Below are positions 14,964 through 19,675 of a DNA stretch of 64,000 nucleotides, one piece after another. The position numbers were made by a program, and so were the translations under genes. Each line of letters begins with the position of its first letter. Within the stretch, counting starts at the first letter, position 1. The notes beneath the pieces are model-generated. The model did no database searches, was not told where the DNA came from, and saw nothing but the letters and a program-made list of their open reading frames with translations. Source of the stretch: Deltaproteobacteria bacterium (GTDB lineage Bacteria > Desulfobacterota > Deferrimicrobia > Deferrimicrobiales > Deferrimicrobiaceae); the NCBI GenBank assembly GCA_016218975.1, contig JACRCO010000037.1:1-64000 (forward strand), read 5' to 3'.

Positions 14964-15521
14964 ATGCGTCACGCCATGGACCACCGGAAACTGCGCCGCA
15001 ATCCGTCACACCGGAAGGCGATGCTCAAGAACCTGATGAACTCGCTGGTTCGATCGGAAAGGATCGAAACCACCGTCGCAAGGGCTAAGGAGCTCCGCCG
15101 GCTCGCGGACAGGCTGATCACCCTCGGGAAAAAGGAAACGATGCACGCGAGGCGGCTCGTCTTCTCGATGCTCGGCGACAAGAAGAACACGGAGAAACTG
15201 TTCGGAGGGCTTGCAGGCCGGTTCTCGGAGCGCGCGGGAGGTTATACCAGGATCATCCGCACGGGGTTCCGGGCGGGGGACGGCGCTGAGATGGCGTTCC
15301 TCGAATACCTTCCGATAGAGGAGAAGAAGGCCGGAGCGAAGAAGGGGAAGAAGAAGGCGGCCGGCAAGGGCAAGGCCGGAGCGGCCAGGCCCAGGACCGC
15401 GAAACCGGCGGCGAAGAAGGAAGCCGCCGTGAAGGGCGCGGAGAAGGAAGAGGGTGGGAAGCCTTCCGCGAGAAAAAGGGCCGCAAAGCCCAAAGCCGGG
15501 AAAATGCCCGAAAACGAATAA
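14964..15521 (+). CDS. rplQ: 50S ribosomal protein L17 with long basic tail
   Basis: L17 sits at the bottom of the 50S subunit near the tunnel exit. The first 115 residues or so are standard: [40 protein letters not shown] and [20 protein letters not shown]. The protein then continues to 185 residues with about 70 residues of almost only Lys, Ala, Gly, Glu, Arg and Pro (for example [20 protein letters not shown]), like a histone H1 tail. Typical L17 is about 115-130 residues. The frame extends upstream into rpoA sequence, but the ATG here gives the family start. It is the last gene before a terminator. Confidence 0.95.
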
Positions 15522-15544
15522 TCGATTTCAATATAACGGATAAT

Positions 15545-15575
15545 AAACAAAAGGCGCCTTGGGCGCCTTTTGTTT
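15545..15575 (+). terminator. Intrinsic terminator of the ribosomal operon
   Basis: A 14-bp perfect stem (AACAAAAGGCGCC with GGCGCCTTTTGTT, plus an outer A-T pair) closes on a TTG loop, 23 bases after the rplQ stop. The A-rich and T-rich arms give a stem that can end transcription in either direction. It separates the ribosomal block from feoB. Confidence 0.9.
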
Positions 15576-15615
15576 AGGGGCCGATTTCAAATACCGCACG
15601 GTCGGCGGCGAATCT

Positions 15616-17601
15616 ATGCAGCAAACGGATCGCAATCCGATTCATGTACATGCCATGCCGCCCGGCAAGGTAATACTTGTAGGCAACCCCAACGTCGGGA
15701 AAAGCGTGGTCTTCGGATACCTGACGGGCAGGTACGTGACCGTTTCCAACTATCCCGGGACGACGGTCGAGATCACCAGGGGCGAGGCAAGGGACAGGGG
15801 TAACGTTTTCGAGGTAATCGATACCCCGGGCGTATATTCCCTTCTCCCGATGTCCGAGGACGAACGGGTCACCCGGGACATCCTTATGGCCGAGCCCGCC
15901 GCGCGTATCATCCAGGTCTGCGATGCGAAAAACATGCGCAGGTCCCTCATGATCACCCTTCAGCTTGCGGAGATGGGCCTCCCCGTCGTCCTTGCCGTCA
16001 ACATGGCCGACGAGGCGATGGCCCGCGGCGTCATGCCCAGGCTGGATGAACTGGAAAAGAAGATCGGCATGCCCGCCGTGCCTACCGTCGCGATCAGGAA
16101 AAAGGGCGTTGACCGCCTCATCGGATTGTCGGAGAGATCGAGTCCGTCCGATCTGCGGATTTCGTACGGCGAAAAGATCGATACCGCCGTCTCGGGCATG
16201 GAGGCGCTTATTCCCGAACATGCGCCGCTCGGGAAGCGCGCCCTTGCACTGATGCTTCTGTGCGGCGACGATTCCCTTACGCCCTGGCTGGCGGAAAACG
16301 TGAAGGGCGAAAAAATCCGGAAGATGAACGCCATCCGGAACCGGCTCGTGGAGGAAACGGGTGAGGACGTCGCGTACAGGGTCAACCAGTTCCGGCTTCA
16401 GTGGATCGACTCCATACTCGACGAGGCCGGAGAAGAACCCTCCGGCGCAAGGGGCACCGACTGGACGCAGGTCTTCGGGCGGTACGCCATGGACCCGGTG
16501 TACGGCATGCCCATCCTTCTCGGAGTCCTGTTTCTCGCCTATGAATTCGTAGGCGTTTTCGGAGCCAAATATCTCGTGGACCTCCTGGAGGGGAGCGTGT
16601 TCGGGAAGGGGATCGTCCCGGCGGTTTCCTGGCTCGCCGAGCGGACCGTCCCGTGGGCGATCGCGAGGGACTTCCTCGTCGGGCCTTACGGGATGATCTC
16701 CATGGCGCTTTCATACGCCATCGCGATCGTGCTTCCTATCGTGGGCACTTTTTTCCTCGGGTTCGGTATCCTGGAAGATTCCGGATACCTGCCTCGACTC
16801 GCCGTCATGGTCGACCGCGTGTTCAAGCGGATCGGTTGCAACGGGAAGGCGGTGCTTCCCATGATCCTCGGGCTGGGTTGCGACACCATGGCCACGCTGA
16901 CGACACGGATCCTCGAGACGCGCAAGGAACGGGTCATAGTGACGCTTCTCCTTGCCCTGGGCATTCCATGCTCTGCGCAACTCGGCGTGATCCTGGGGAT
17001 GCTGGGGAAAGTCGGCCCCGCGGCCACCTTGACGTGGGTGGCCGTCCTGCTTGGCGTCATCCTCGCCGTCGGCTGGCTCGCGTCGAAGGTCATCCCGGGG
17101 GAGTCCGCGGACTTTATCCTCGAGATTCCGCCCATCCGCTTGCCGCAGCTCGGCAATCTCGCCGTCAAGACGATGGCGCGGATCGAATGGTACCTGAGGG
17201 AGGCGGTTCCCCTGTTCCTGCTTGGGACCTTCATCCTTTTCGCCGCCGACCGTTTCGGGTGGCTGCTGTGGCTGCAAAAAGCCGCGGAGCCCCTCGTTGT
17301 CGGAGCCCTGGACCTCCCGCCGAAGACCGCGGAGGCGTTTCTCATCGGTTTCCTGCGCCGGGATTACGGCGCAGCCGGGCTGTTCGACATGGCGAGGGCC
17401 GGGCTTCTCACCAATCTCCAGGTCGTCGTGAGCCTCGTCACCATAACGCTTTTCATCCCTTGCCTTGCGAATTTCCTCGTTATCGTGAAGGAGCACGGTT
17501 CGAAAGTCGCCGCGGGAATGGCGGCGTTCATATTCCCGTTCGCAATCCTGGTCGGGGCGCTCGTGAATTACGCGGCGAAAAAAATGGGGATCGCGTTCTG
17601 A
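15616..17601 (+). CDS. feoB: Ferrous iron transporter FeoB
   Basis: FeoB moves Fe2+ across the inner membrane, powered or gated by its cytosolic G-protein domain. From this ATG it has 661 residues. The G motifs are GNPNVGKS (G1), DTPG (G3) and NMAD (G4), at about residues 22-135. The membrane part starts near residue 300 and has the Gate motifs with conserved cysteines, GLGCDTMATLTTR and GIPCSAQLGVI. A start at 15655 is possible, and neither has a strong binding site; the open frame before 15616 runs through the terminator and is unlikely. No free feoA lies upstream; the FeoA domain is two genes downstream. Confidence 0.93.
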   Translation: MQQTDRNPIHVHAMPPGKVILVGNPNVGKSVVFGYLTGRYVTVSNYPGTTVEITRGEARDRGNVFEVIDTPGVYSLLPMSEDERVTRDILMAEPAARIIQVCDAKNMRRSLMITLQLAEMGLPVVLAVNMADEAMARGVMPRLDELEKKIGMPAVPTVAIRKKGVDRLIGLSERSSPSDLRISYGEKIDTAVSGMEALIPEHAPLGKRALALMLLCGDDSLTPWLAENVKGEKIRKMNAIRNRLVEETGEDVAYRVNQFRLQWIDSILDEAGEEPSGARGTDWTQVFGRYAMDPVYGMPILLGVLFLAYEFVGVFGAKYLVDLLEGSVFGKGIVPAVSWLAERTVPWAIARDFLVGPYGMISMALSYAIAIVLPIVGTFFLGFGILEDSGYLPRLAVMVDRVFKRIGCNGKAVLPMILGLGCDTMATLTTRILETRKERVIVTLLLALGIPCSAQLGVILGMLGKVGPAATLTWVAVLLGVILAVGWLASKVIPGESADFILEIPPIRLPQLGNLAVKTMARIEWYLREAVPLFLLGTFILFAADRFGWLLWLQKAAEPLVVGALDLPPKTAEAFLIGFLRRDYGAAGLFDMARAGLLTNLQVVVSLVTITLFIPCLANFLVIVKEHGSKVAAGMAAFIFPFAILVGALVNYAAKKMGIAF

Positions 17602-17614
17602 CGCGGGTGATGAC

Positions 17615-17809
17615 TTGAATATCAGGTGCCCGCTTTGCCAATATGAAATAGACCCGTCCCTGGCGGGATGCAGGACCGGCTGTCCCATGGGAAAGAGCTG
17701 CTCGCTGGTCTGCTGTCCGAGGTGCCGTTATTCGTTTCCCATGCCGGAATCGAAAGTCGTGAATTTTTTGAAGTCCCTCTTCGGGGCAAGGAAAGGAACC
17801 CGGCCATGA
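17615..17809 (+). CDS. Small eight-cysteine protein of the feo locus
   Basis: A 64-residue protein of unknown function. Cysteines are at positions 5, 8, 19, 23, 29, 33, 34 and 37, in the pattern CPLC, CRTGC, C, CC and C, followed by the short tail ESKVVNFLKSLFGARKG, which could form an amphipathic helix. The spacing suggests zinc or Fe-S binding, but no known domain is recognised. It starts at TTG (GGTGATGAC upstream), 13 bases after feoB, and its stop overlaps the next gene by ATGA. The context points to a role in iron uptake or in sensing beside FeoB, comparable in position, not in sequence, to FeoC. Confidence 0.75.
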   Translation: MNIRCPLCQYEIDPSLAGCRTGCPMGKSCSLVCCPRCRYSFPMPESKVVNFLKSLFGARKGTRP

Positions 17810-18453
17810 CCGAGTACGGGCAGGACGAAATCCTGGAGCTGATCTGGACGCTGCGGGAGGAGAACTGCTCCTCGAAACGGCGGCTGCTGGAGCGGTCCGA
17901 AGAGGAGCGTCCTGAAGGGATATTGGAGGAGTTGCGCGCGGCGGGACTTGTCGACGCGGCGGAGGACGATATTCGTCTTACGCAGGCCGGAGAAGAGAGG
18001 GCTCGGGGGATCATCAGGCGCCACAGGCTTGCGGAAGTGCTGCTGCAGAACCTCTTCGACCTCGATCCGTTCCAGATGGAAAGCAGCGCGTGCAAGTTCG
18101 AGCACATCCTGACCACCCAGGTGACCGACAGCGTCTGCTCGTTCCTTGGGCATCCGCCGGTCTGCCCTCACGGGAGGGCGATCCCGCGCGGGGAATGCTG
18201 CGACCGCATCCGGGCGGATGTCCAGCCTCTCGTGACCCGCCTTTCCGACGCCGCGCTCGGGGACGGCGTGCGCATCGTCTTCATCACCCCGAAATCAAGG
18301 AAGCGGCTCGAAAAACTGAGCTCGCTCGGTATCGTTCCGGGAAGCAGCCTGCGGCTTCTCCAGAGGAACCCCTCCTTCGTGCTGCAGATAGGGGAAACCA
18401 CGGTCGCGGTGGACAGGGACATCACGGATGAGATCTACGTCAAGCGCGCGTAG
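17806..18453 (+). CDS. DtxR/MntR-family metalloregulator with C-terminal FeoA domain
   Basis: Probably an iron-responsive repressor of the feo operon. The 215 residues show a winged-helix N-domain (about 1-65, TEYGQDEILELIWTLREE and GLVDAAEDDIRLTQAGEERA), a metal-binding dimerisation domain (about 66-135, ARGIIRRHRLAEVLLQ, SACKFEHILT, CPHGRAIPRGECC) and an SH3-like FeoA domain (about 145-215, LSSLGIVPGSSLRLLQRNP). Cysteine ligands in CKFEH and PVCPHG are typical of iron-sensing members. The longer frame from 17668 overlaps the Cys-rich gene and lacks homology, so the ATG in the ATGA overlap is chosen. Confidence 0.88.
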   Translation: MTEYGQDEILELIWTLREENCSSKRRLLERSEEERPEGILEELRAAGLVDAAEDDIRLTQAGEERARGIIRRHRLAEVLLQNLFDLDPFQMESSACKFEHILTTQVTDSVCSFLGHPPVCPHGRAIPRGECCDRIRADVQPLVTRLSDAALGDGVRIVFITPKSRKRLEKLSSLGIVPGSSLRLLQRNPSFVLQIGETTVAVDRDITDEIYVKRA

Positions 18454-19675
18454 GGGGCTCGCCCTTTTCCTGTGCGTCCTGTTCGCCCTGCAGGGGGCAG
18501 GGACGGCGGGATGGGCGGCCGCGGAACGCCCTCCCGAACCATGCCTGCTTCTCAAGCTGTCTTCCCCTTCAGTTCCCGAGGATTTCGCGCGCGGGCGGAT
18601 GGCGCCTTTACCGGCATTGCTCTTGAGGGAGTTGAACGTCCGATGGGTGGCCCCTCCTGCCGCTGCGGTCCCGCCGGACATCAAGGCGGCGTTTCCCGAT
18701 GCGGACGACGCCTCGCTCGACGGAATTTCGAGGACATTGGCCGATGCGCTTCGCCAGATGGACCGGATGGAGATGCGGGAGGCCGAGCGCTCATTGTCCA
18801 AGGCCGAGAACGACGTGAGAAAGTTCCGCATCGGCGTCGGAACCAGGCCCCTTCTGGCGGAAATTTTCATGAGGCGCGGGCAGATGAAGCTGTGGGAAGG
18901 AAATCCGGCGGGAGCGGAGGAGATGTTCGCGCGGTCCCGGGCCATGCGCAACGATTTTTCGCCGGACCCTGCCCTGTTTTCGCCGTCCTTCCTGGAAGTG
19001 TGGGAACGCTCGAAACACCGCCCTGCCCCGGAGGCGGAGCTTCTCGTCCGATCCATCCCTCCGGGCGCTTCCGTTTCGGTCGACGGAACGCAGCGCGGCG
19101 CTACTCCCTGCAGGATCCGGGTGTCCTGCGCGGGACCGGTGCGTATCAGGGTGTCCCTGGCGGGTTACCAGGACGTGGAGAAGGCAGGCCAGTGGCTGCC
19201 GGGGGATTCCGAATCCCTGGAATGGATCCTCGGCCGCGATCGCATCGCCACGCTTGGGGATTTGATTGCCGCCGCACCCGACGGAAAGGGGACCGGGAAA
19301 CTTTTACACGAGCTTGCATCCGCGGCGGGCGCCTCCCGGACGGCCTTGGTGGTGCTGGAGGACCGCAAGGGGAAAACCGTCGCGCGCGTCCTTTCCTCCG
19401 GCGGCGGAGACGCGGATCCCGCGCTTCTTGGAGAGTTCGAATGGCCGCAGGGTGACGACGGAATCGAAGAGGCGGCAGGCGTGGCTGCGAAGCTCCTGCG
19501 CGATGCCGGATGGCCCCCCGCCAAGGGCAGCCCGTCGGACCCCGATTCACCGTGGTACCATAAGTGGTGGATATGGGTCTTCATCGGAGCGGTGGCGGTC
19601 GGCCTGGCGGCAGGCGGAGGAGGAGGGGGAGGAAGCTCCGGCGGTTCCTCCGGGACGATAGGCGTTTCGTTTTGA
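18428..19675 (+). CDS. PEGA-domain protein with signal peptide and C-terminal membrane segment
   Basis: An envelope protein of unknown function. The 415 residues begin with a signal peptide (RGLALFLCVLFALQGAGTAG, cleavage near residue 30), then an alpha-helical region (about 90-190) that may hold repeat helices. A PEGA domain (about 200-265) is shown by LLVRSIPPGASVSVDGTQRG and RIRVSLAGYQDVEKAGQW; such beta-domains usually bind surface or wall partners. Near the C-terminus a membrane helix (WWIWVFIGAVAVGLAAGG) is followed by a glycine/serine tail. It overlaps the regulator gene by 26 bases and so may share its mRNA. Confidence 0.75.
   Translation: MRSTSSARRGLALFLCVLFALQGAGTAGWAAAERPPEPCLLLKLSSPSVPEDFARGRMAPLPALLLRELNVRWVAPPAAAVPPDIKAAFPDADDASLDGISRTLADALRQMDRMEMREAERSLSKAENDVRKFRIGVGTRPLLAEIFMRRGQMKLWEGNPAGAEEMFARSRAMRNDFSPDPALFSPSFLEVWERSKHRPAPEAELLVRSIPPGASVSVDGTQRGATPCRIRVSCAGPVRIRVSLAGYQDVEKAGQWLPGDSESLEWILGRDRIATLGDLIAAAPDGKGTGKLLHELASAAGASRTALVVLEDRKGKTVARVLSSGGGDADPALLGEFEWPQGDDGIEEAAGVAAKLLRDAGWPPAKGSPSDPDSPWYHKWWIWVFIGAVAVGLAAGGGGGGGSSGGSSGTIGVSF

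Follow-up and report, generated by a model that had tools for sequence, protein, structure and literature searches.

The Feo locus of a Deltaproteobacteria bacterium of the family Deferrimicrobiaceae (assembly GCA_016218975.1, contig JACRCO010000037.1) raises the question of what a FeoA domain does when it is carried by a protein that looks like an iron-dependent repressor. The stretch analysed, hereafter the window, comprises 64,000 nucleotides (positions 1 to 64,000 of the contig). In it, feoB is followed by a gene for a small cysteine-rich protein (the Cys protein) and by a gene for a DtxR-like regulator that ends in a FeoA domain (the sensor-FeoA protein). Gene content and conservation indicate that this FeoA domain very probably serves FeoB. 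On balance, the sequence comparisons point to a variant three-part Feo system composed of FeoB, the Cys protein, and a FeoA carrying a DtxR/IdeR-type iron sensor; its sensor-FeoA component would act on FeoB and would not be a repressor.

Feo genes and the conserved triad

The genome examined (97.6% complete, 100 contigs) contains one FeoA domain, at the C-terminus of the DtxR-like regulator encoded after feoB, and the FeoA domain search of the whole genome found no free feoA. The match on the regulator (E 2.5e-12; 47.1 bits vs. a cut-off of 23) is too strong to be due to chance. There is likewise one FeoB, with a single FeoB_C match, the other nine FeoB_N matches being far weaker (E 4e-12 or worse vs. 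7.4e-52), and the FeoA and FeoB domain searches revealed no second Feo system elsewhere. A sequence-only reading of the window had described a locus without free feoA, whose only FeoA-type domain sits on the regulator; it is borne out, neither a separate feoA/feoB pair nor a weak domain score having been found. That reading missed the gene for the Cys protein, as well as the lack of a match in the regulator to PF01325, the helix-turn-helix (HTH) domain of DtxR. Its idea that the domain had been moved onto the repressor does not hold, since DtxR proteins normally end in an SH3/FeoA domain and the layout recurs in genomes across the phylum. A move in this genome alone is ruled out, the layout being common to the family and beyond. 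As to other iron-related genes, the genome has one Fe_dep_repr_C match and two Fur-family matches; PF01325 gave no match (E up to 0.001, 15 of 20 candidates scored), and FeoC has no Pfam match anywhere in the genome.

A FeoA domain occurs in 23 of the order's 24 genomes and FeoB likewise in 23, the one genome lacking both being 61% complete. In 17 of the 24, FeoB and the Pfam FeoA domain each occur exactly once, with FeoA on the sensor-FeoA protein; the domain lies there in frames of 249–301 residues that are also found by the regulator profile. In one of these 17 genomes (G015), our own profile adds a partial FeoA-like stretch unreported by the Pfam search (locus L172). It belongs to a 129-residue frame, resembles the C-terminus of second-locus regulators, and has no FeoB match within the locus.

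A profile of the Cys protein matches at least 70 of 395 genomes of the phylum and at least 41 of 246 genera, the first count being a lower bound because at most 16 candidates per genome were scored. Six weak matches (G050, G060, G241, G282, G320, and G337; E 3e-5 to 6e-4) are excluded from the loci fetched. The order FeoB, Cys protein, FeoA domain on one strand, with FeoB at most 300 bases upstream and the FeoA domain at most 900 bases downstream, is seen in 68 of 70 copies in the fetched and named loci; the other two are L162 (G351, a weak match with E 1.7e-5) and L174, which lies at a contig end. The triad loci comprise 61 with a full sensor-FeoA protein and seven with FeoA only. The main copies of the window's family enter the triad and FeoA-only counts through the named loci L040–L054, which come from the same or near species, so that their rows are not independent, and not through the short loci L055–L070. 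At L121, the FeoB of the triad is split over two frames, possibly as a pseudogene or an assembly error.

The sensor-FeoA class is wider than the triad with the Cys protein. A sensor-FeoA protein with a degenerate DNA-reading part, as described below, lies beside FeoB without a detected Cys protein at L230–L233, L237, L239, L240, L244, and L250, and in L239 and L250 it is placed ahead of FeoB. Another one (L251:1291–1980) has no FeoB within ~1.3 kb on either side.

Seven cysteines of the Cys protein (C5, C8, C19, C23, C29, C34, and C37) are invariant in 53 sequences and form the pattern CxxC-C-C-C-CPxCxY. The window's protein has no NCBIfam match and belongs to no named family; comparison with the PDB gave weak matches only, zinc-finger and rubredoxin-like ones included (E 0.04 or worse). 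Scattered zinc-ribbon or rubredoxin-like Pfam matches occur in at most nine of the 53 relatives. The structure model of the protein is poor, with a mean predicted local distance difference test score (pLDDT) of 64, and its fold is not usable.

The iron sensor and the DNA-reading helices

The regulator frame is open in the window and conserved in 57 relatives, which rules out a pseudogene. In an alignment of 58 regulators (the window's protein and 57 of 61 relatives; L045, L047, L143, and L151 left out), residues E8, H73, E77, C96, E99, and H100 are invariant. When aligned with IdeR, they fall on the metal-ligand positions of DtxR/IdeR. The primary ligand set E8, C96, E99, and H100 is kept, with E8 in place of M10. 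At the ancillary positions, H73 and E77 are invariant; E92, at the place of IdeR H98, is kept in the near relatives but not in all 58. Pfam finds both the Fe_dep_repr_C domain (PF02742; E 1.5e-21 in the window's protein) and FeoA in 58 of 58 regulators, partly by construction, since the proteins were picked with our own profiles of both domains.

Six further residues, C111, H116, C120, H122, C131, and C132, are invariant in the 58 regulators and could form a second metal site or cluster. This Cys/His loop is the most conserved stretch measured (73% mean pairwise identity). Together with the seven-cysteine neighbour, it would suit an iron-handling partner instead of a gate: the dimer and the Cys protein would take Fe2+ from FeoB and pass it on, with FeoA serving for docking. 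Such a role is improbable, as the ligands are those of a regulatory sensor site and the sensor is missing in seven loci while the Cys protein and FeoA stay.

The part that should read DNA looks degenerate. PF01325 matches none of the 58 regulators, and none was seen in the window's protein at E up to 0.1. The 26-residue block of helices H2–H3 has a mean net charge of −3.05 (−8 to +2, n = 62, the window and near copies included, L170 and L173 not counted) vs. +4.04 (+2 to +5) in 50 true DtxR proteins, and the recognition-helix pattern V[ST]xxL is present in two of the 62 regulators vs. all 50 of the true DtxR proteins. Among the 58 regulators, mean pairwise identity is 18% for H2–H3, 46% for the whole protein, 58% for the metal domain, and 47% for FeoA. 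In the true DtxR proteins, H2–H3 reach 55% vs. 41–42% for the whole protein, these controls being 50 DtxR proteins that the HTH model retrieved from the same phylum, a choice that raises their HTH conservation. With the ligands invariant and H2–H3 unconserved, selection evidently maintains the primary iron site but not the DNA-reading helices, which drift. We infer that the regulator has lost DNA binding.

Selection of loci by the metal domain gave a similar picture. The 30 best-scoring loci of a longer list, partly the same genes as in the triads, include 25 of the degenerate kind and five with a true DtxR; FeoB is present in 23 of the 25 and in none of the five.

FeoA without the sensor and the role of Fur

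A free FeoA is found in 11 of 12 FeoB loci with a true DtxR and in none of 23 with a degenerate sensor-FeoA protein. The single true-DtxR locus without it (L216) has a flank of only ~1 kb. In addition, the seven FeoA-only loci retain FeoA although no metal domain was found in them. L119, L132, and L166 have a remnant of the first helix joined to FeoA. At L144 (4512–5150), the Cys protein and FeoA share one uninterrupted frame with a GHCCGKC stretch between them, which looks as if the sensor had been excised and the ends joined. L159 has its HTH and FeoA pieces in separate frames, only FeoA is present at L167, and L121 is fragmentary. Because remnants of the first helix persist, the FeoA-only forms are best regarded as probable losses of the sensor.

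A tree of 70 FeoB rows separates the triad FeoBs from three canonical ones, with a support of 100 in the Shimodaira–Hasegawa-like approximate likelihood-ratio test (SH-aLRT), and the FeoA-only state requires at least three separate changes. The tree comes from a quick search, has some long branches and an outgroup of three rows on a long branch, and leaves out FeoB frames shorter than 450 residues, L121 among them. A tree of the FeoA domains alone has too few columns to date the fusion. That FeoA is kept after the iron site is lost makes sense if FeoB needs FeoA, and it would make little sense for a repressor.

In 44 of 64 triad loci, feoB is immediately preceded by a Fur-family open reading frame of the same orientation; the count leaves out five loci with fewer than 500 bases upstream. 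A Fur box with at most two mismatches occurs in seven of 70 upstream regions vs. 0.1 expected from shuffles that keep base content only. At the sister locus L044, the gene order is rplQ (named by eye), fur, feoB. In the window, rplQ is followed by a terminator-like repeat and then by feoB, with ~185 unalignable bases between, and its positions 15476–15661 contain no alignable remnant of a fur-like gene in comparison with positions 2133–2862 of L044. At L118 (2024–2485), a true HTH-type DtxR without FeoA lies directly upstream of a triad that has no fur.

The sequence-only reading had proposed that the FeoA domain might let FeoB or iron flux communicate directly with repression. Its FeoB side gains support from the distribution of free FeoA and from the retention of FeoA without the sensor; its repression side does not. 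Because the DNA-reading helices look disabled and a Fur-type gene precedes feoB in most relatives, the likely link runs from the iron sensor to the transporter, not from the transporter to a repressor. The degenerate DNA-reading part beside a kept sensor, together with the Fur-type gene next to it in most relatives, could also be explained if the protein were a DNA-blind DtxR that formed a pair with a second regulator, for instance Fur, and in this way controlled transcription. We give this explanation very little credence: the genome has no other DtxR partner, given its one Fe_dep_repr_C match, the Fur fold differs from that of DtxR, and the FeoA-only versions are left unexplained.

A number of observations weigh against a link from sensor to transporter. 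Some of them also favour an ordinary DtxR/IdeR repressor with a divergent winged helix, in which FeoA/SH3 would be the structural third domain common to such proteins and the gene would do no more than regulate feoB. The protein has the overall DtxR fold and ligands, and a third domain of this kind is standard in DtxR. The AlphaFold2 model of the regulator (mean pLDDT 87.3; predicted template modelling score 0.64) keeps the winged-helix fold (H24-30, H36-45, and the wing), and its first two domains superpose on IdeR within ~2 Å over ~127 columns. Whole chains fit at ~10 Å, with the third domain in another position. The model rules out that the winged helix is lost completely and shows it to be degenerate rather than gone; the region is shorter in L120, L146, and L151. 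Two members, L148 and L156, match the recognition-helix pattern, one of the 58 regulators matches the generic winged-helix model HTH_45 (E 0.0044), and the way in which the controls were chosen flatters the contrast with true DtxR. E92 is found in at least 90% of near relatives and is not conserved across all 58, and some lineages can do without the sensor, as the FeoA-only forms demonstrate. True DtxR genes also adjoin FeoB in 11 of 50 control loci; neighbourhood by itself is therefore no proof, and it was dropped as a sole argument.

The literature and the window itself add to this side. As described in PMC8464063, IdeR reads DNA largely by backbone shape; diverged base-contact residues alone, therefore, do not exclude DNA binding. 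PgMntR, a DtxR with twin FeoA domains, can be a DNA-binding regulator according to PMC4805248, and a gene R follows feoB1 in Geobacter in Table 3 of PMC545781. The fur-type gene has been lost from the window's operon and the window has no good Fur box (the best match has five mismatches), so a second iron regulator would have a job here. The protein may be a divergent DNA-binding repressor, but we regard an ordinary repressor as unlikely. H2–H3 are acidic and the least conserved part measured, PF01325 is absent from all 58 regulators, free FeoA is missing from 23 loci beside FeoB, FeoA is kept without the sensor, and a Fur-type gene lies directly upstream in 44 of 64 loci.

Proposed mechanism, locus features, and known systems

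If the sensor does act on the transporter, the sensor-FeoA protein would be a dimer that no longer represses genes, and its FeoA domain would dock on the FeoB GTPase domain in the way free FeoA does. Once Fe2+ occupies the DtxR-type site (E8, C96, E99, and H100, with H73 and E77), the placing of the FeoA domain may change. The shifted domain would then either speed or slow FeoB, so that imported ferrous iron would exert direct product feedback on its own uptake. The Cys protein probably binds Fe2+, Zn2+, or an Fe-S cluster and would occupy a place like that of FeoC. We see about even chances that the locus represents a separate class of Feo, in which FeoA fused to a DNA-blind DtxR sensor gives FeoB post-translational feedback from cytosolic Fe2+. 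As part of this reading, and with equal reserve, the protein can be viewed as a repressor turned transporter subunit that still scores best against repressor models. NCBI DtxR and MntR models match all 58 regulators at E up to 0.001, and the window's protein obtains 64 and 69 bits with them, the cut-offs being 290 and 350, respectively.

In Feo, iron is not known to exert feedback at the level of the transporter. If the proposal is correct, a FeoA with a ready-made, well-understood iron site makes the question of the FeoA role testable, and some proteins that resemble DtxR or MntR repressors are not repressors. The role of FeoA for FeoB is still debated, as stated in PMC8980893.

Features of the Feo locus in the window and of the domains of the sensor-FeoA protein
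Feature	Coordinates	Strand	Remarks
Inverted repeat with GTTT behind it, interpreted as the terminator of the preceding gene	15549..15571	+	By eye
feoB, 661 aa, only FeoB of the genome	15616..17601	+	TIGR00437, 393.7 bits (cut-off 315.65)
Small cysteine-rich protein, 64 aa	17615..17809	+	Listed start TTG; start uncertain
DtxR-like iron sensor fused to FeoA, 215 aa	17806..18453	+	
N-terminal winged-helix fold, residues 1-59	17806..17982	+	H2-H3 acidic and unconserved; E8/E11 kept
Metal-binding and dimerisation domain, residues 59-128	17980..18189	+	
Cys/His loop of the regulator (C111, H116, C120, H122, C131, C132)	18136..18201	+	
FeoA (SH3-like) domain, regulator residues 145-213	18238..18444	+	

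The three genes are arranged head to tail, and the last two overlap by ATGA, the ATG of the regulator gene overlapping the stop of the Cys-protein gene. The start of feoB is 45 bases past the terminator-like inverted repeat, which is absent from the output of the consensus scan and was seen by eye only; the gene upstream, also named by eye, we take to be rplQ. The gene after the regulator (18428–19675) encodes a PEGA-domain protein, and its frame as listed overlaps the end of the regulator. A frame of 416 residues occupies the corresponding position in L044.

No description of a sensor-FeoA protein as a partner of FeoB was found among the open-licence PMC papers listed by the searches, most of which were screened from their listing entries. 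The window's protein resembles the DtxR/IdeR/MntR repressors in the order of its three domains, its fold, the primary metal-ligand positions, and the FeoA third domain. It differs from them in the lack of PF01325 throughout its 58 aligned members, in the acidic and unconserved H2–H3, and in taking the place of free FeoA in the 23 loci examined beside FeoB.

The Feo(AB) fusions described for Bacteroides fragilis in PMC8980893 are similar in that the FeoA domain is tied to another polypeptide and functionally to FeoB; here, however, FeoA is joined to an iron sensor and not to FeoB. In the B. fragilis fusion, FeoA touches NFeoB, the GTPase domain, and slows GTP hydrolysis, as reported in the same paper, whose survey is stated to have excluded DtxR-joined FeoA proteins from its data. 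For Shewanella oneidensis, PMC8749426 reports an uptake test with growth only when both FeoA and FeoB are present; the words DtxR and deltaproteobacteria are absent from that survey of Feo evolution.

Like the window's system, FeoABC combines FeoB with SH3, winged-helix, and cysteine-rich parts. FeoC has a winged-helix fold. It also carries a cysteine motif, as noted in PMC8749426. In the window, the winged helix is instead part of the sensor-FeoA protein and the cysteines belong to a separate protein, FeoC being unmatched in the genome. The FeoB-associated cysteine-rich protein family PF12669 is comparable in being a small cysteine-rich product encoded right after feoB. The window's Cys protein has its own cysteine pattern and does not match this family (E up to 0.1), nor is PF12669 among the 25 listed of the 29 families that match the 53 relatives.

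A parallel in gene order comes from a survey of 2004. Its Table 3 (PMC545781) lists feoB1 - R with predicted Fur boxes and no feoA in Geobacter, and fur2-feoB1 - R, again without feoA, in Desulfuromonas. These entries resemble the sensor-FeoA loci in having feoB1 without feoA and with R after it, in the predicted Fur box, and, in Desulfuromonas, in the fur2 gene ahead. The term DtxR is absent from the text of PMC545781, and R is a table entry without sequence, so that its identity with the sensor-FeoA gene is presumed. If R of Geobacter is indeed the same gene, well-studied iron reducers use sensor-FeoA too.

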